Positions 3,254 through 62,383 of a stretch of 64,000 nucleotides of DNA are shown one piece after another; position 1 is the stretch's first letter; each line of letters begins with the position of its first letter. The notes beneath the pieces were generated by a model. It was not told the DNA's origin, ran no database searches, and saw only the letters and a program-made list of their open reading frames with translations. The stretch is taken from assembly GCF_018304825.1 (NCBI RefSeq), contig NZ_CP072648.1, positions 1,781,501-1,845,500 of the forward strand, read 5' to 3'. The position numbers and the translations under genes are program-made. The DNA comes from Chloracidobacterium validum. GTDB taxonomy: Bacteria; Acidobacteriota; Blastocatellia; Chloracidobacteriales; Chloracidobacteriaceae.

Positions 3254-5107
3254 ATGTCAGCAAAGCTTGGTGAAGTCCTGCTCAAAGAAGGGCTGATTAC
3301 GCCGCAGCAGTTGAAAGAAGCCCTTGACTACCAACGGGCCAATGGTGGTCGGCTTGGCTCCATTTTTGTCACGCTGGGGATGGTCCAGGATGAAGCCATT
3401 ACCTCGGTTCTGAGTCGGCAATACGGTGTTCCGGCGGTCAACCTGGACCTTTTCGATGTTGACCCTAACGCGGTTCGCTTGCTTCCTGAAGAAACTGCCC
3501 GCAAGTACATGGTACTTCCGCTCGCTCGCAATGGCTCGACGATGACCCTGGCGATGGTTGATCCGGCGAATGTGTTTGCGGTGGATGACATCAAGTTCAT
3601 GACGGGCTTGAGCATCGAGCAAGTCGTCGTTTCTGAACTGTCGCTCGAACGCGCCATCGCGCGCTATTACGCGCCAGAGAAGGGACTCGTCCTGGCTGAG
3701 AAAATGAATGAATTCTCAGCCGGACTCAATGACCAGTTCAGCCTTGCAAACCTGAGCAATCTGGCTGGCGCAACGGCCGCGCCAGCCGCCCCGGTCAATC
3801 TCGACGAGGCGATGAATGAGATCAACGAAGCCCTTGGTGAAGGTGATTTCGAGGTTTCCGAAGCGCCTACCGAGGATGTGCTCGATCTCAGCACCCAAGC
3901 GGCTGATGAGGCTCCAGTCGTCAAGCTGGTCAACATGATCTTGGTTAGCTCACTGGAGTATGGGGCGAGTGACATCCATATCGAGCCATACGAGAAGGAG
4001 TTTCGCGTTCGCTTCCGAGTGGATGGGTTGCTGCGAGAAGTGATGCGTCCGCCAATGAAGATGCGGGCCGGTTTGACCTCGCGCATCAAAATCATGGCCA
4101 AGCTCGACATTGCGGAAACTCGCCTCCCCCAAGACGGTCGGATCAAAATCAAGCTCAAGCGCGAGACCGGTGTGCGCGACCTTGACTTTCGCGTGTCAAC
4201 TCTGCCGACCCTCTGGGGCGAAAAAATCGTGCTTCGGCTGCTCGACAAAGAGAAGCTGATGCTCGACATGACCAAACTCGGTTTTGAACCGGAAAGCCTC
4301 GAAAAGTTCAAGCGCCAGATTGCCAAACCCTACGGCATGGTGTTGGTCACCGGTCCGACGGGATCAGGAAAAACCAATACGCTTTACTCGGCGCTATCAA
4401 GCCTGAACACGCCGGACACAAACATCATGACGGCTGAAGACCCAGTCGAGTTCAACCTCACAGGCATCAACCAAGTTCAGATGAAAGAACAAATTGGGTT
4501 GAACTTCGCAGCCGCGCTCCGGTCCTTCCTGCGCCAGGACCCAAACATCGTCCTGGTGGGTGAAATCCGCGACTTTGAAACGGCTGAAATCGCTGTCAAA
4601 GCCTCGCTGACCGGACACCTCGTGCTGTCCACGCTCCACACCAATGATGCCCCATCTACGGTCAGTCGGTTGATGAACATGGGGATCGAGCCATTTCTGG
4701 TAGCCACTTCGGTCAACCTCATTCAGGCGCAGCGTCTGATCCGGCGCATTTGCTCAGAGTGCAAGGCCCCGGCCAAGATTCAGCCGCCAGCCCAAACGCT
4801 GATAGAACTTGGGTTTACACCAGAAGAAGCGTCCAAGATCACGATTTATGAAGGCACCGGTAAAACCAAGGATGGGCGCGAGTGTCCGAAGTGCAAAGGC
4901 TCCGGCTACAAGGGCCGGGTTGGTCTGTATGAGGTTATGGAGATGAACGATGAGTTGCGCGAACTCATCCTCATCGGGGCCTCGTCCCTAGAGCTGCGCA
5001 AAAAAGCGATTGAACACGGCATGCTCACGCTGCGGCGGAGCGGACTCAGGAAAATTATGGATGGCATCACTACGATCGAAGAAGTTGTACGCGAAACCGT
5101 CTTATAA
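3254..5107 (+). CDS. pilB: Type IV pilus assembly ATPase PilB
   Basis: Hexameric cytoplasmic ATPase that powers pilus extension. The N-terminal ~150 residues form a GspE/MshE N-domain (LGEVLLKEGLITPQQL). A linker rich in Ala, Glu and Asp follows, then the GspE ATPase core with Walker A GPTGSGKTNT near residues 366-375, the Asp box (EDPVEFN), Walker B (LVGEIRDFET) and the His box (GHLVLSTLHTNDA). A tetracysteine zinc element is present near the C-terminus (CSEC and CPKC), as in PilB/GspE but not PilT. Length 617 residues is slightly above typical PilB (~570) because of the linker. First of a pilB-pilT-pilC row. A 155-bp gap follows. Confidence 0.97.
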   Translation: MSAKLGEVLLKEGLITPQQLKEALDYQRANGGRLGSIFVTLGMVQDEAITSVLSRQYGVPAVNLDLFDVDPNAVRLLPEETARKYMVLPLARNGSTMTLAMVDPANVFAVDDIKFMTGLSIEQVVVSELSLERAIARYYAPEKGLVLAEKMNEFSAGLNDQFSLANLSNLAGATAAPAAPVNLDEAMNEINEALGEGDFEVSEAPTEDVLDLSTQAADEAPVVKLVNMILVSSLEYGASDIHIEPYEKEFRVRFRVDGLLREVMRPPMKMRAGLTSRIKIMAKLDIAETRLPQDGRIKIKLKRETGVRDLDFRVSTLPTLWGEKIVLRLLDKEKLMLDMTKLGFEPESLEKFKRQIAKPYGMVLVTGPTGSGKTNTLYSALSSLNTPDTNIMTAEDPVEFNLTGINQVQMKEQIGLNFAAALRSFLRQDPNIVLVGEIRDFETAEIAVKASLTGHLVLSTLHTNDAPSTVSRLMNMGIEPFLVATSVNLIQAQRLIRRICSECKAPAKIQPPAQTLIELGFTPEEASKITIYEGTGKTKDGRECPKCKGSGYKGRVGLYEVMEMNDELRELILIGASSLELRKKAIEHGMLTLRRSGLRKIMDGITTIEEVVRETVL

Positions 5108-5262
5108 CCCAACCAAGGTCTAGCCCAGTTAGCATTCGTGACCAGTTAGCGCTTCGGCCAGTGCGGCGCCAGCCTAGCACGGTGCGAGAGCCAAGAAACA
5201 AACTTGGTTTTTAGCTTTGTGACTGAATTCCACTGCCAGCGTCACCCACGGAGGTACACGCC

Positions 5263-25300: not shown

Positions 25301-25915
25301 ATGATGGAAATCCAGCCGTTACGGGTCAGGTCGGTTTCCTTGGCCGCGCGTTGTGAGATTTGTCATCAGGCCGATTGTTACGACCCAGCGTCCAATGTTT
25401 GTAGCCGCTGCCAAGATGTGTTGCCTTTCATCGCGCCGTCAGGAACGTTGCGTCAACCGACCTTTGACTCGCTGGAGCGCTTCTGGACGATGCTGCTGGC
25501 CGGAAGCCGTGTCGGGTTCGTCAGCAGCTTGGTCGTCGTGGCGCTCTACATCGCGTGGCGGCAGACAGGCTTTCCAGATGCGCACCCCATCCGCAACGGC
25601 ACGATGTTTGCCGAGATCGGATTTCTGGTTGGGACGTTTGCTGGCGTCCTCCGCCACGGCGGCCATGCCGAGACGCCCCGTATTGCCGCACACAACGCCA
25701 TTCTGGGGTTCATTTTTGGTGGAATTCTGACCGGCTTGCTTTATCTGCTCAAGTTTGCAGCGCCCGATCTGGACGGGGCAGATTTTCTGCGCTTTCTCGC
25801 CTTCTGTACCTTCGGCGGCCTCATTTTTGCCCTGGGCGGTGGCTTTATCGGCGCGGTGCTCAGCGTGCTGATCCCGGTTGACCACCCATTGCGCCGGCGG
25901 TCAACCCATTTCTGA
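25301..25915 (+). CDS. Zinc-ribbon membrane protein, unknown function
   Basis: About 204 residues. Near residue 18 is a putative zinc site CEICHQADCYDPASNVCSRC. Then come four hydrophobic segments: VGFVSSLVVVALYIAW, IGFLVGTFAGVL, AILGFIFGGILTGLLYLLKF and LAFCTFGGLIFALGGGFIGAVLSVLI. No family is recognised. The start at 25301 has GGGAGG nine bases upstream; upstream sequence to 25133 is open but has no coding character. It ends 5 bp before the HD-GYP gene, so the two are probably one transcript. Confidence 0.72.
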   Translation: MMEIQPLRVRSVSLAARCEICHQADCYDPASNVCSRCQDVLPFIAPSGTLRQPTFDSLERFWTMLLAGSRVGFVSSLVVVALYIAWRQTGFPDAHPIRNGTMFAEIGFLVGTFAGVLRHGGHAETPRIAAHNAILGFIFGGILTGLLYLLKFAAPDLDGADFLRFLAFCTFGGLIFALGGGFIGAVLSVLIPVDHPLRRRSTHF

Positions 25916-25920
25916 ACGAG

Positions 25921-27501
25921 ATGGCTGGACAAGTCTCCGCGCTAGACGCCTGGGCGGCGCGAATCGCCGAGTGCGAGCGTGAAGCGGTGCAGATTGATGC
26001 ACTTGAAGGTTACACGACACCGCACGCGGCGCAGTTAGCGGCCTGGGCAGATGAACTGGCGGTTGCCTTTGGTTTTTCCGAACGCGGTCGCCGGGACCTT
26101 CAGCTTGCGGCGCTTCTCCACGATATTGGCGAAAGCCACCTGGATTTGCCCGGACTGACTGCGGCGCGGCCGCTCACGTTTGCCGAGCGCCACACCCTCT
26201 GGCGACATCCCGTCGTTGGTGAGCGGCTGGCGCAGGAAAGGAATCTCCCCGAAGCCAGCAGGCTACTGATTCGCTGGCACCACGAGAACTGGGATGGCTC
26301 CGGTTATCCAGATGGGTTGCGCGGCGAGCAGATTCCCCTGGCGGCGCGCATTCTGCGGACGGTGGACACCTGGTGTGCACTGACGCAGGCGCGTCCGTTC
26401 CGTCCGGCGCTAAGCCCATCAGACGCCCTTGACCGCTTGCGGTCGCTGGTTGGAACAACGCTTGATCCCGTCGTGGCAAGCCGCTGGTTGACGCGCGTGC
26501 TCGGCAACCCAGAGCCGGCAAGCAAAGTGTCGCCCTGGACGGTTTCCCACAGCACGGTTCATCAGCCTCCGCTAATTGGTTTTGAGTTGGCGGCGCTCCA
26601 AACGATACCGTTTCAAACCATTGCCCTGCCGTTTGGCGGTGACGGACTACTTGGCTGGCATCTCAAGCTGCTTGGCAAACAAGTCTTCACAAATGATGCG
26701 CGTCAAGCCGAGACATGCTTGGCAATTGGGTCGGTTGAAAACAACGGCTACGTCCTCACGGCCAGCCAGCTCGATGCCTGGTTGAGCCGTGCCCGCGACG
26801 CCGAAGACAATCCAGACTTTCCGTATAACCCAGCCTTAGGGCGCTGGTTTCCACCGGCGCAAGCCCGCTGGTTGGCCGGCTTCCGGCGCGCCGTCATCGC
26901 CGATCCAAACCGAATCATTCAAGCGCTTGGCATGAGCCTTGGCTTATATCTTGGGGACTACTGGCTGGCGTTCGATCCGGCATCCACAGACAGACGCTCG
27001 ACACTGGAAGAGGTCGCCATTGAAGGGTTGTCCAAAGTCAATCGCGCCGTGGATAACCAACTGGCCAACCAGGCGACGTGCCTACCGGCGCAGGCATTTG
27101 CCGTCCAAACATCCGCTGATGTGGTCTATGTCCGCCTGCCGCCGTTGGCGGCCTACCATCATGCGACGAATCACCGAGACGGTTGGCGCGAAACTTGGGT
27201 GAGTGACCTCCCGGACGCGCTCGCGCAGTTGACTCAAAAACATACCGGACGCCTTGGCGGTCAGCTTGGTTCACGCCGTGAATACCGCGCGGCGTTACGT
27301 TCCTTGCTGCGGCGGCTGCCGCACATTCCTCAGTGGGCCATCGGCATCTCGCACGACGGGCAAGGCTTAGGGCTGCCTGACGACCTTCTGACGGAAATTA
27401 TTGGTTTTCGACCGATTGCCAAGATTCTCACCAAACCGGTCAGCGCTTGCGGGACGCTCCTCAACCAATCCATCGTCTTTTGTCAGACTCGCGTGGACTG
27501 A
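25921..27501 (+). CDS. HD-GYP domain protein fused to a degenerate D12-type DNA methylase-like domain
   Basis: 526 residues. Residues ~30-190 are an HD-GYP phosphodiesterase domain with the full motif set: LLHDIG (H67, D68), RHTLWRHPVVGE and HHENWDGSGYPDGLRGEQIPLAARIL (GYP 128-130); this family hydrolyses cyclic di-GMP or related dinucleotides. From ~215 to the end the order of elements matches D12-class adenine methylases: PFGGDGLLGWHLKLLGKQVFTND (like motif I), FPYNPALGRWFPPAQARWLAGFR, then DVVYVRLPPLAAYHHATNH where active enzymes have DxVYLDPPYxxRxYxxNYH. The Asp and Tyr of DPPY are replaced (RLPPL near 405-409), so methylation is unlikely. It follows a zinc-ribbon membrane protein gene by 5 bp. 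Confidence 0.85.
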   Translation: MAGQVSALDAWAARIAECEREAVQIDALEGYTTPHAAQLAAWADELAVAFGFSERGRRDLQLAALLHDIGESHLDLPGLTAARPLTFAERHTLWRHPVVGERLAQERNLPEASRLLIRWHHENWDGSGYPDGLRGEQIPLAARILRTVDTWCALTQARPFRPALSPSDALDRLRSLVGTTLDPVVASRWLTRVLGNPEPASKVSPWTVSHSTVHQPPLIGFELAALQTIPFQTIALPFGGDGLLGWHLKLLGKQVFTNDARQAETCLAIGSVENNGYVLTASQLDAWLSRARDAEDNPDFPYNPALGRWFPPAQARWLAGFRRAVIADPNRIIQALGMSLGLYLGDYWLAFDPASTDRRSTLEEVAIEGLSKVNRAVDNQLANQATCLPAQAFAVQTSADVVYVRLPPLAAYHHATNHRDGWRETWVSDLPDALAQLTQKHTGRLGGQLGSRREYRAALRSLLRRLPHIPQWAIGISHDGQGLGLPDDLLTEIIGFRPIAKILTKPVSACGTLLNQSIVFCQTRVD

Positions 27502-37754: not shown

Positions 37755-39617
37755 CTACCGCTTGAACAACTTGCCGATGAGTTCCCCAACGTCCTGCTGG
37801 AGGAGACCTTTTTTGGGTTCGGCCGACTTGGGATCGGATTTTGGCACAGGCTTGGACTTCTCGGCCGCGCCGGTGACTGACCCGGCGGAGGCAGCGGTTT
37901 GGCTCGTCGCTGGCTTGAGGGACAGCATCTGCTTGGCCACCGGGTTATCTGGTTGGATAGATAGCACCGCCTCAAACTGCTTGCGCGCGGATTTTTCCAT
38001 CCCAGCCTGGTGATACATGTGACCAAGTGCTAGGCGGGCGTCCACATAGTTCTCATCTAGCTTGAGAATGGCCAGAAGCTGATCTTCGGCTTCCTTGCGC
38101 AACTTGGGATTCTGCATGCACAACGAGGCGAGCCGTGAACGATAACGGATCACGTCGGGGGCAAGGCGAACCGCCTCCCGCAGGTAGGTCATCGCGGTGA
38201 TGAAATCCTTGCGCTCGATAGCCGCACAGGCGAAGTCATAGCTCCGTGCCGCTGTGTCAGCTTGTGTCTCCGGTGGGGGCGCGGCCGAACCGGTGGACGA
38301 TCCGGTTTGGCGGCCAAGCTCTTGCGTGCGACTCTTGGCAGTCTCGCTTCCTGCCTGCGTGAACGTTGGCGGCAAAGCTCCGGTCGTGCTCGCCCCAACT
38401 GGCATGCCTGGCGGAGTTGGCACCGGAACTGGACGGCTCGCCGGGGCCGTTGGTGCCGGCGACGCTTCACTGGCGGCTGTCACTGACGCAAATTTTGCCT
38501 CCGTCCGGTCGCTGGTTTCCGGTATGACCCCAATGAAATCGTCGTACCGTCGGCGCACTTCCGGGTCGCGGAGCTTCTCGTAAGCTTCGCTAACCTTGGA
38601 AAAAACCCACTCGGCATCGTTGAGTACGTCAGGCAGCCCAAGGTTACGGTACCGATCCGGGTGATACTTCTTCGCCATCTGGTAATACGAACGCTTGATG
38701 TCGCTATCACTGGCGGAAGGACTCAAATTGAGCATGTCATAGTACGTTGTTGTCCTAAGGGACAAAAACTCACGCAACATCTGAAACTCAAAGCGCGCTT
38801 CATCCAGATTGACTTCAGTTTCAGGCTCCGGCAGGTTGACCGGCGTTGGCGGCGTCGCGGCGGGAGCCTGGGTTGGCGTGGCCACGGCGGCCACCGGTTG
38901 CGGATTGGCCATAGTCGGACGCGGATGGCTTGTCACCAAGATACCAGCGCATACCAAGCCATACACCACACGCAGGATGGTCGCTTCAGGAACGCCGCTG
39001 ATGAGCACCAACTCATCAATGGTCATCCGCCCCGTGATTCGCGACAGAACAAAACCCTCCGTGCCGTCAAGTGTTGCCCGTTGGAGTTGCGTCATTGCAT
39101 CTGGCGACAGTTCAATGTGCTGCGTGGTCGGGCCTAGCGAGCGGCGGATCGCCTCTTCATTGGTCATGCGCCGCACCCCCAGGAGAATCAGGTTTGGCGT
39201 CAACAGGTCCAGTTTGACGTCATGGGCGGCGCGCGAGCCCTCATCGAAGGAGAAGTCCCCGCTCACCCACTCAAAGGCCGCGAGAATGATGTCGGTTAGG
39301 TGCTGGCGGGCATGCGTCTCCACCATCTCACGCGACATAGCGCCCATTTCGACCAGGACTTGCCCGAAACGCTGCTTGGCGTTGGGCTTTTGAACCGCGG
39401 CTTCATACTGCTCGCGGGTAATCAGGTCGCGTGACAGCAAAAAGTCGCCCAGTCGCTCGTGTGGCAGATTTGATAACGCAAACACCACATCACCGTTTTC
39501 AACGAAGACGGCGCGCAGTTCGCGCTCGCGGGTCAGGCGGAGCAGCCCAGTACGCCGCGTGAGGTGCAAGTCACGAATGATGTCAGCAAAGTTGAGGACT
39601 GAAAGCTTGCCGTTCAT
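37755..39617 (-). CDS. DUF4388 / J-domain / TPR protein
   Basis: About 620 residues. Residues 1-~90 are a DUF4388 domain (MNGKLSVLNFADIIRDLHLTRRTGLLRL ... in parts), then a helical GspE-N-like stretch (HERLGDFLLSRDLITREQYEAAVQ). A linker rich in Pro/Ala/Thr leads to a DnaJ J-domain (YYDMLNLSPSASDSDIKRSYYQMAKKYHPDRYRNLG) with the HPD tripeptide intact, so it can recruit DnaK. The C-terminal ~150 residues are TPR repeats (AIERKDFITAMTYLREAVRLAP) and a Lys-rich tail. DUF4388 proteins are common in gliding and predatory bacteria and in Acidobacteria; roles include pili/gliding regulation. The ATG at 39617 has AGG close by; the frame runs open to 39848 without coding character. Confidence 0.88.
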   Translation of the reverse strand: MNGKLSVLNFADIIRDLHLTRRTGLLRLTRERELRAVFVENGDVVFALSNLPHERLGDFLLSRDLITREQYEAAVQKPNAKQRFGQVLVEMGAMSREMVETHARQHLTDIILAAFEWVSGDFSFDEGSRAAHDVKLDLLTPNLILLGVRRMTNEEAIRRSLGPTTQHIELSPDAMTQLQRATLDGTEGFVLSRITGRMTIDELVLISGVPEATILRVVYGLVCAGILVTSHPRPTMANPQPVAAVATPTQAPAATPPTPVNLPEPETEVNLDEARFEFQMLREFLSLRTTTYYDMLNLSPSASDSDIKRSYYQMAKKYHPDRYRNLGLPDVLNDAEWVFSKVSEAYEKLRDPEVRRRYDDFIGVIPETSDRTEAKFASVTAASEASPAPTAPASRPVPVPTPPGMPVGASTTGALPPTFTQAGSETAKSRTQELGRQTGSSTGSAAPPPETQADTAARSYDFACAAIERKDFITAMTYLREAVRLAPDVIRYRSRLASLCMQNPKLRKEAEDQLLAILKLDENYVDARLALGHMYHQAGMEKSARKQFEAVLSIQPDNPVAKQMLSLKPATSQTAASAGSVTGAAEKSKPVPKSDPKSAEPKKGLLQQDVGELIGKLFKR

Positions 39618-61339: not shown

Positions 61340-62383
61340 GTGAACAGTCTCAGTCAGACACAAAAATTGCAAGCCAACCCGCTTGCCCGCCCGCGGCAGG
61401 CCCGCCCAGCGCTTGTTCACATGCGTGGTGACTACCTGGGCAGTTCTTTCCGCATCGAGCGGAGTGTCATGCGCATCGGCCGTGGTTCGGATGCTGAGTT
61501 GCGGCTTGAAAATGATGATGAAGCGTCGCGTCTCCATGCCAAAATTGAGTGTTCCGAAACCCCAACTGGTCACTTTCAGTACTGGTTGACCGACCTGCGG
61601 AGCACGAATGGCACGCAGCTCAATGGCATTCCACTGACGCCGGGTGAGCCAGTGTTGCTGCATGACGGAGACAAATTCTCGATTGGCCGGCATATTCTGA
61701 AGTTCACCTTCCTAGACGACATTGACGAAGAATTCCACCGCCGGATCACAGACCTCATCACGCATGACGACCTGACGGGACTGCTCACCCGCAAAAGCTT
61801 CATTCTGGAAATGGAGCGGGAAATGGCACGTTCGAATCGCTATGGCCACCCGTTCGGACTGCTGATGATGGATATTGACTTCTTCAAGCGAGTCAACGAT
61901 ACCTACGGGCACCTGATTGGCAGCCAAGTCCTGCGTGAAGTGGCCGTGGTCATCCGGCAAACGCTGCGCGATTCCGACATCGCCGGACGCTATGGCGGCG
62001 AAGAGTACATTGCGCTCCTGCCGGAAACTGACCGGGTTCGGGCGCATGAAGCCGCCGAACGCATTCGGGCCGCAATTGAGAGCGCCCCGTTCACGGCGTC
62101 GCTCCACGACCCCAATCTCAAGCTCAACTTGACCATTAGCGTAGGGATTTCGAGCTACCCGGGAGACGCCACCCAAGTCAACGACTTGATTGAGCGCGCC
62201 GATGAAGCCATGTATGAGGCGAAAAGGCGCGGCCGCAACCTGGTTCAAATCGCTGGACAATCGTCAGCCACGCGCACGACACCGCCATCGCTTCCTACGG
62301 CCGGCCGACCAATGCCTCGTTTGGAAGCCAACCCAACCGAACACCTCACCATCGAACAACCGAAACCGGCCGGAGATTCGTGA
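61340..62383 (+). CDS. FHA-GGDEF diguanylate cyclase
   Basis: About 347 residues. Residues ~50-125 are an FHA domain (MRIGRGSDAELRLENDDEASRLHAKI ... DLRSTNGTQLNG), which binds phosphothreonine peptides. The GGDEF domain follows (DDLTGLLTRKSF ... DIDFFKRVNDTYGH) with the active site GGEEY and an inhibitory RxxD site five residues upstream (RDSDIAGRYGGEEY), so product inhibition is likely. It makes cyclic di-GMP in response to a phosphorylation signal. The start is uncertain: the frame opens at 61157 inside the divergent M16 gene; I use the GTG at 61340, with a possible alternative further in. Its output would serve the pili or the HD-GYP protein. Confidence 0.9.
   Translation: MNSLSQTQKLQANPLARPRQARPALVHMRGDYLGSSFRIERSVMRIGRGSDAELRLENDDEASRLHAKIECSETPTGHFQYWLTDLRSTNGTQLNGIPLTPGEPVLLHDGDKFSIGRHILKFTFLDDIDEEFHRRITDLITHDDLTGLLTRKSFILEMEREMARSNRYGHPFGLLMMDIDFFKRVNDTYGHLIGSQVLREVAVVIRQTLRDSDIAGRYGGEEYIALLPETDRVRAHEAAERIRAAIESAPFTASLHDPNLKLNLTISVGISSYPGDATQVNDLIERADEAMYEAKRRGRNLVQIAGQSSATRTTPPSLPTAGRPMPRLEANPTEHLTIEQPKPAGDS

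Follow-up and report, generated by a model that had tools for sequence, protein, structure and literature searches.

HD-GYP domains usually break down signaling dinucleotides, and D12 methylases are the classic restriction-modification and Dam enzymes. The Blastocatellia, in which the present analysis finds derivatives of the two paired, are a class of soil and hot-spring bacteria. In the HD-GYP protein PmGH, the K225A mutation abolishes the activity, and the introduction of an Ala at D183, K225, or D308 is about as severe as the loss of a metal ligand (PMC4159591). DvhD of Desulfovibrio vulgaris is an HD-GYP receptor of c-di-GMP, which binds the dinucleotide without hydrolyzing it (PMC13090378).

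The window (the whole 64,000-nucleotide stretch of Chloracidobacterium validum DNA that was analyzed) contains a gene that starts with ATG, runs without interruption along 526 aa, and joins an HD-GYP domain to a domain derived from a D12 methylase (Table 1). The preliminary description had placed an HD-GYP domain in the N-terminal half, which the Pfam match bears out, and the solved chains nearest to this half are 5z7c, 4r8z, 9rbz, and 4mcw, with V-cGAP3, PA4781, DvhD, and PmGH as the PDB relatives. The open reading frame directly upstream is conserved only within the genus, gave no match in a Pfam search, and is probably an operon mate of the fused gene in Chloracidobacterium alone.

Table 1. 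Coordinates, in window numbering, of the fused gene, its domains and diagnostic residues, and the neighboring reading frame.
Feature	Position	Strand	Basis
Fused gene, complete, 526 aa: HD-GYP + D12-methylase-derived domain	25921..27501	+	ORF, translation; full-length relatives L001-L003, L074, L075
HD-GYP domain, residues 32-185	26014..26475	+	PF13487 E=1.1e-30
D12-methylase-derived domain, residues 206-526, catalytically decayed	26536..27498	+	hhalign E=1.5e-15, 6.9e-22 vs D12 enzymes; AF2 pLDDT 86; Foldseek
Glu71, HDIGK lysine position (PmGH K225)	26131..26133	+	Lys in 0/44 partner HD-GYPs
Cys152, PmGH D308 position	26374..26376	+	Asp in 2/44 partners vs 18/19 other HD-GYPs
D12 motif I remnant PFGGDGL	26629..26649	+	GxG kept in only 8/45 relatives
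Asn-Asp, residues 258-259, after strand 2	26692..26697	+	N 45/45, D 44/45; invariant in aligned D12 enzymes too
RLPP replacing DPPY	27133..27144	+	[DNS]PP[YFW] in 0/45 relatives
Co-directional upstream ORF, two CxxC pairs, hydrophobic segments	25301..25915	+	stop 5 nt before fused gene

The region of about 320 residues behind the HD-GYP domain (206-526) gave nothing significant in direct sequence searches of Pfam, NCBIfam, PHROGs, and the PDB; weak matches to neurofibromin and to a serine hydrolase were regarded as fortuitous. Scanning of prokaryote genomes located full-length fused relatives (L001-L003) in Chloracidobacterium and Blastocatellia MAGs, and the C-terminal half alone was found to be 25-28% identical to proteins bearing FSGSG and DPPY (L036-L038), which their PF02086 matches (best E = 1.4e-20) identify as D12 methylases. 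As the search that yielded the latter proteins had started from shared peptides, an unbiased six-frame scan with the family profile was examined too. Within the same genomes, the profile matched open frames about 364 aa long (E = 2.3e-24 in G096 and 7.6e-6 in G000:C2), which are genuine DPPY-bearing D12 enzymes. Profile-profile comparison with hhalign gave E = 1.5e-15 for six family against three D12 sequences and, when 45 family and nine D12 (PF02086) sequences were used, an alignment of 272 columns with E = 6.9e-22. The PFGGDG, the NPALGRWFPP block, and the VVYVRLPP that had been singled out in the preliminary description lie where it placed them, each aligned with the corresponding D12 region. 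It can be mentioned here that the window's own genome encodes a genuine DPPY-bearing D12 methylase on a second contig (G000:C2; L168:923-2008(-), PF02086 E = 2.8e-31).

The predicted fold points in the same direction. In a Foldseek search with an AF2 model of the domain (15 aligned rows, pLDDT 86, pTM 0.85), the 14 best PDB matches are all E. coli Dam (E from 3e-5 to 5e-4), a result that is only partly independent of the sequence comparison, because the alignment included D12 rows. A model obtained from six close relatives without D12 rows was poor (pLDDT 54), and the fold search with it ranked Dam at the top without significance. Judged by profile and fold comparison, the C-terminal half is a true homologue of the D12 adenine methylases rather than a member of another fold, in agreement with the original proposal that an HD-GYP domain is joined here to a D12 methylase with decayed catalytic motifs.

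As to the decay, none of the 45 family members carries a motif IV of the [DNS]PP[YFW] type, the usual substitute being RLP, and the SDNEYVRRYHF stretch that follows DPPY in the D12 enzymes is gone together with it. The alignment with the D12 enzymes also shows that the N-terminal TRxMGSKxKLL (GSK) segment is missing throughout the family and that a 10-residue segment of the RGIFTY type, taken to be the D12 target loop, is deleted, and the motif I GxG survives in only eight members, that of the window among them, the other 37 having lost it. Residues F16, L21, K44, N53, F146, P202, W217, E219, Y250, and K300 (domain numbering) are nevertheless invariant, and dN/dS for the D12-derived half is about 0.12-0.16, with very few changes in the most similar pair (L074/L075), indicating purifying selection. 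Because the motifs are lost while these residues stay invariant at such a dN/dS, the domain is considered to have decayed as a methylase and to be maintained as a protein. A frameshifted pseudogene is ruled out by the same conservation and dN/dS, and a chance resemblance to D12 enzymes by the dN/dS and by conservation across the class (139 of 162 genomes).

What is left of the D12 SAM pocket, to which the FGGDG-type motif and the ND after strand 2 belong, bears on the idea that the D12-derived half senses SAM or SAH and thereby gates the HD-GYP half. The window's clade keeps FGGDG, and ND is present in 44 of the 45 members; however, most members have lost the GxG and all lack the SAM-binding GSK segment. 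SAM sensing is therefore not a function of the whole family, could persist only in the family of the window, and is in our estimate quite unlikely. Even less weight is given to the alternative that the D12-derived half still binds DNA, bringing the HD-GYP to the nucleoid or acting as a dinucleotide-responsive transcription regulator. The D12 ancestry and the persistence of the target-recognition insert region as a conserved helical block speak for such a role, but on average the pI is 6.8 in the family against 8.8 in the D12 enzymes and the net charge -2 against +6, in addition to the deletion of the RGIFTY-type segment. The DNA-binding module suggested in the preliminary description thus finds no support, as the net positive charge and the presumed target loop are lost. 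With motif I and the basic charge mostly gone, both functions are less likely across the family.

The family-profile searches covered the phylum Acidobacteriota, where, among 396 genomes, the D12-derived domain was found in 41 of the 47 genomes of the window's class and in none outside it. In a class-wide scan it was present, usually as a single copy, in 139 of 162 Blastocatellia genomes (90 of 101 high-quality ones), a distribution that rules out an isolated peculiarity of a single genome. Although nearly universal in the class, the family is not represented in Pfam or NCBIfam. Viral contigs contained no relatives of the decayed family, the other matches there being genuine D12 enzymes only. 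One record (L004) is labeled as an Actinomycetota MAG; going by the name of its scaffold and the genes present, it is probably a mislabeled member of the Acidobacteriota.

The association with HD-GYP is close. With five exceptions, the non-redundant loci examined have the HD-GYP either fused to the D12-derived domain or encoded by the gene immediately upstream in the same orientation, and many of the unfused pairs have a 1-nt overlap or only a few bases between the genes. In the five exceptional loci the D12-derived gene is relocated, and each genome encodes the same HD-GYP type elsewhere (59-70% identity), so that they were rejected as a break in the pairing. On either tree the fused state takes three changes to explain, and with G491 there is a fourth fused lineage; hence, the fused form occurs in at least four lineages, the two genes being otherwise mostly separate and adjacent. 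The partner HD-GYPs group in a single clade (SH-aLRT 98) that is distinct from 19 other HD-GYPs. The patristic distances of the HD-GYP and D12-derived trees correlate with r = 0.93, a value that shared vertical descent alone would give likewise. The view that no protein with this pairing has been described agrees with the openly licensed literature, in which we found none. To our knowledge, no D12 methylase has been recruited as a signaling pseudo-enzyme, and no such case was found in the open literature.

Further genes and domains accompany some of the pairs. In family f4 (L080-L113), the HD-GYP gene is immediately preceded in 22 loci (e.g., L084:9826-11292(-)) by a DUF4388-DnaJ-TPR gene, which stays beside it where the pseudo-methylase gene is relocated (L175, L176) and whose product is probably a third component in f4. 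The window itself has a DUF4388 domain (39159-39611, minus strand) in a 722-aa open frame, and its genome has 17 DUF4388 matches. In L089:6437-7987(+), the partner HD-GYP carries a fused GNAT acetyltransferase domain, and the pseudo-methylase gene lies downstream. In unfused pairs of the window's family, the HD-GYP (L004, ORF 3565-5166; L005, 5947-7326) may have a long Pro/Glu-rich tail, which precedes the start of the overlapping pseudo-methylase gene.

The state of the HD-GYP active site was assessed in 44 partner domains, against 45 for the D12-derived half. The window domain retains H35, H67, D68, H96, H120, H121, Y129, and D149, such that the HD and HHExxDGxGYP motifs and the metal ligands are in place, and the position of PmGH E185 is a Tyr, which predicts a site of at most two metals. 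The equivalents of H189, D222, H250, H276, H277, Y285, and D305 (PmGH numbering) are retained in most partners, such that the seven ligands of a two-metal site and the GYP tyrosine are largely intact. The residues D183, K225, and D308, essential in PmGH, are Glu, Glu, and Cys in the window and are replaced in nearly all of the 44 partners. At the K225 position, 37 partners have Glu, four Leu, two Ala, one Val, and none the Lys that 18 of the 19 other HD-GYPs carry; at the D183 position, 39 have Glu and none Asp, and the D308 position is listed in Table 1. The HD histidine (H221 position) has been lost in seven partners through two events, and three of the seven partners also lack the first His of HHE. 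The statement that all HD-GYP motifs are present is accordingly correct for the metal-binding His and Asp residues and for GYP, but not for the lysine of HDIGK or the equivalent of PmGH D308, and the label of dinucleotide phosphodiesterase becomes uncertain, the residues essential in PmGH being absent. Since a Glu at the K225 and D183 positions is not an Ala, the comparison predicts an altered rather than a certainly dead site.

These replacements are central to a rival explanation, in which the partner HD-GYP would be an active cyclic-dinucleotide phosphodiesterase with a non-standard center, the Glu at the K225 position giving the metals a carboxylate and the D12-derived half serving as a regulatory or stabilizing subunit. 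The metal ligands and GYP tyrosine kept in most partners are consistent with this. Against it stand the strong impairment of PmGH by K225A, D183A, and D308A individually (PMC4159591), all three positions being changed in nearly every partner, and the retention of the pair where the HD histidine, or the first HHE His as well, is gone. Such an enzyme is considered possible but doubtful.

The co-occurrence with GGDEF links the pair to cyclic dinucleotides. GGDEF was found in all 27 pair-bearing genomes tested, whereas the six f8 genomes have no GGDEF, no HD-GYP, and no pair. Three f5 genomes, with none (G123), one, and one marginal GGDEF matches, lack both HD-GYP and the pair, as does an f88 genome with one GGDEF match below the cut-off. 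Ten fragmented f2/f4 assemblies have GGDEF without the pair, likely because the assemblies are incomplete. The pair is not indispensable, because G211 (f6) has many GGDEF and HD-GYP proteins without it. At the other extreme, G506, G499, G267, G500, G503, G505, G418, G419, and G422 have a single GGDEF, and G227 two, with the partner as the only HD-GYP; several of the one-GGDEF genomes belong to f7 and f4 (e.g., G506, G499, G418, G267, G422). Tests of G506, G499, G418, G267, G227, G505, and G422 showed no EAL, and the readable single GGDEFs retain an intact GGDEF or GGEEF. Genomes with one GGDEF and a single partner HD-GYP represent a nearly minimal signaling circuit, in which the partner, with its two-metal ligands and GYP, may be the sole phosphodiesterase; this favors the active enzyme and counts against a receptor. 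In the window, a GGDEF domain is found at 61760-62239 (plus strand) in a 413-aa open frame.

What can be read from the genomes themselves is that the domain is homologous to the D12 enzymes and has lost their motifs, that the pairing is fixed, that fusion has occurred repeatedly, and that the pair is lost jointly with GGDEF. As to what the pair does, the account to which we give somewhat better than even confidence is a Blastocatellia-specific module linked to cyclic dinucleotides, with the HD-GYP half as the binder of the nucleotide and the D12-derived half as its partner for structure or docking. A dinucleotide made by the GGDEF protein, probably c-di-GMP, would bind at the metal/GYP pocket, where hydrolysis would be little or altered, and binding would shift the contact of the HD-GYP with the D12-derived half, which would act in this structural or docking role rather than methylate DNA. 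A receptor is slightly preferred to an active but modified phosphodiesterase that needs the pseudo-methylase subunit.

The data suggest the recruitment of a dead DNA-modifying enzyme into second-messenger signaling. In the broader scenario, which we hold at about even odds, an adenine methylase was turned early in the Blastocatellia into a dead, obligate partner of a modified HD-GYP, the pair forming the conserved core of the cyclic-dinucleotide signaling of the class and its sole HD-GYP where one diguanylate cyclase remains; two altered nucleic-acid and nucleotide enzymes would thus have given a new receptor or phosphodiesterase complex. The pair is a testable candidate for cyclic-dinucleotide sensing or degradation in this class.

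Compared with the D12 N6-adenine methyltransferases (PF02086; E. coli Dam, DpnM type), the pseudo-methylase family shares about 270 collinear columns, the ND after strand 2, the helical insert, and the strand order. It differs in lacking the DPPY and N-terminal GSK motifs, the target-loop segment, mostly the GxG, and the basic charge, and in being always paired with an HD-GYP. The partners resemble the HD-GYP phosphodiesterases (PmGH 4MCW, V-cGAP3 5Z7C, PA4781 4R8Z) in fold, most metal ligands, and GYP, and depart from them in the K to E change of HDIGK, the non-Asp residue at the D308 position, the Glu at the D183 position, and, in some, the missing HD histidine; in place of a sensor such as PAS, GAF, or REC, they have a pseudo-methylase as the partner. 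DvhD provides a precedent for an HD-GYP turned into a binding domain (PMC13090378). However, DvhD is a membrane receptor with dCache/PAS that has lost the metal ligands, whereas the Blastocatellia module keeps most of them and has a D12-derived partner.
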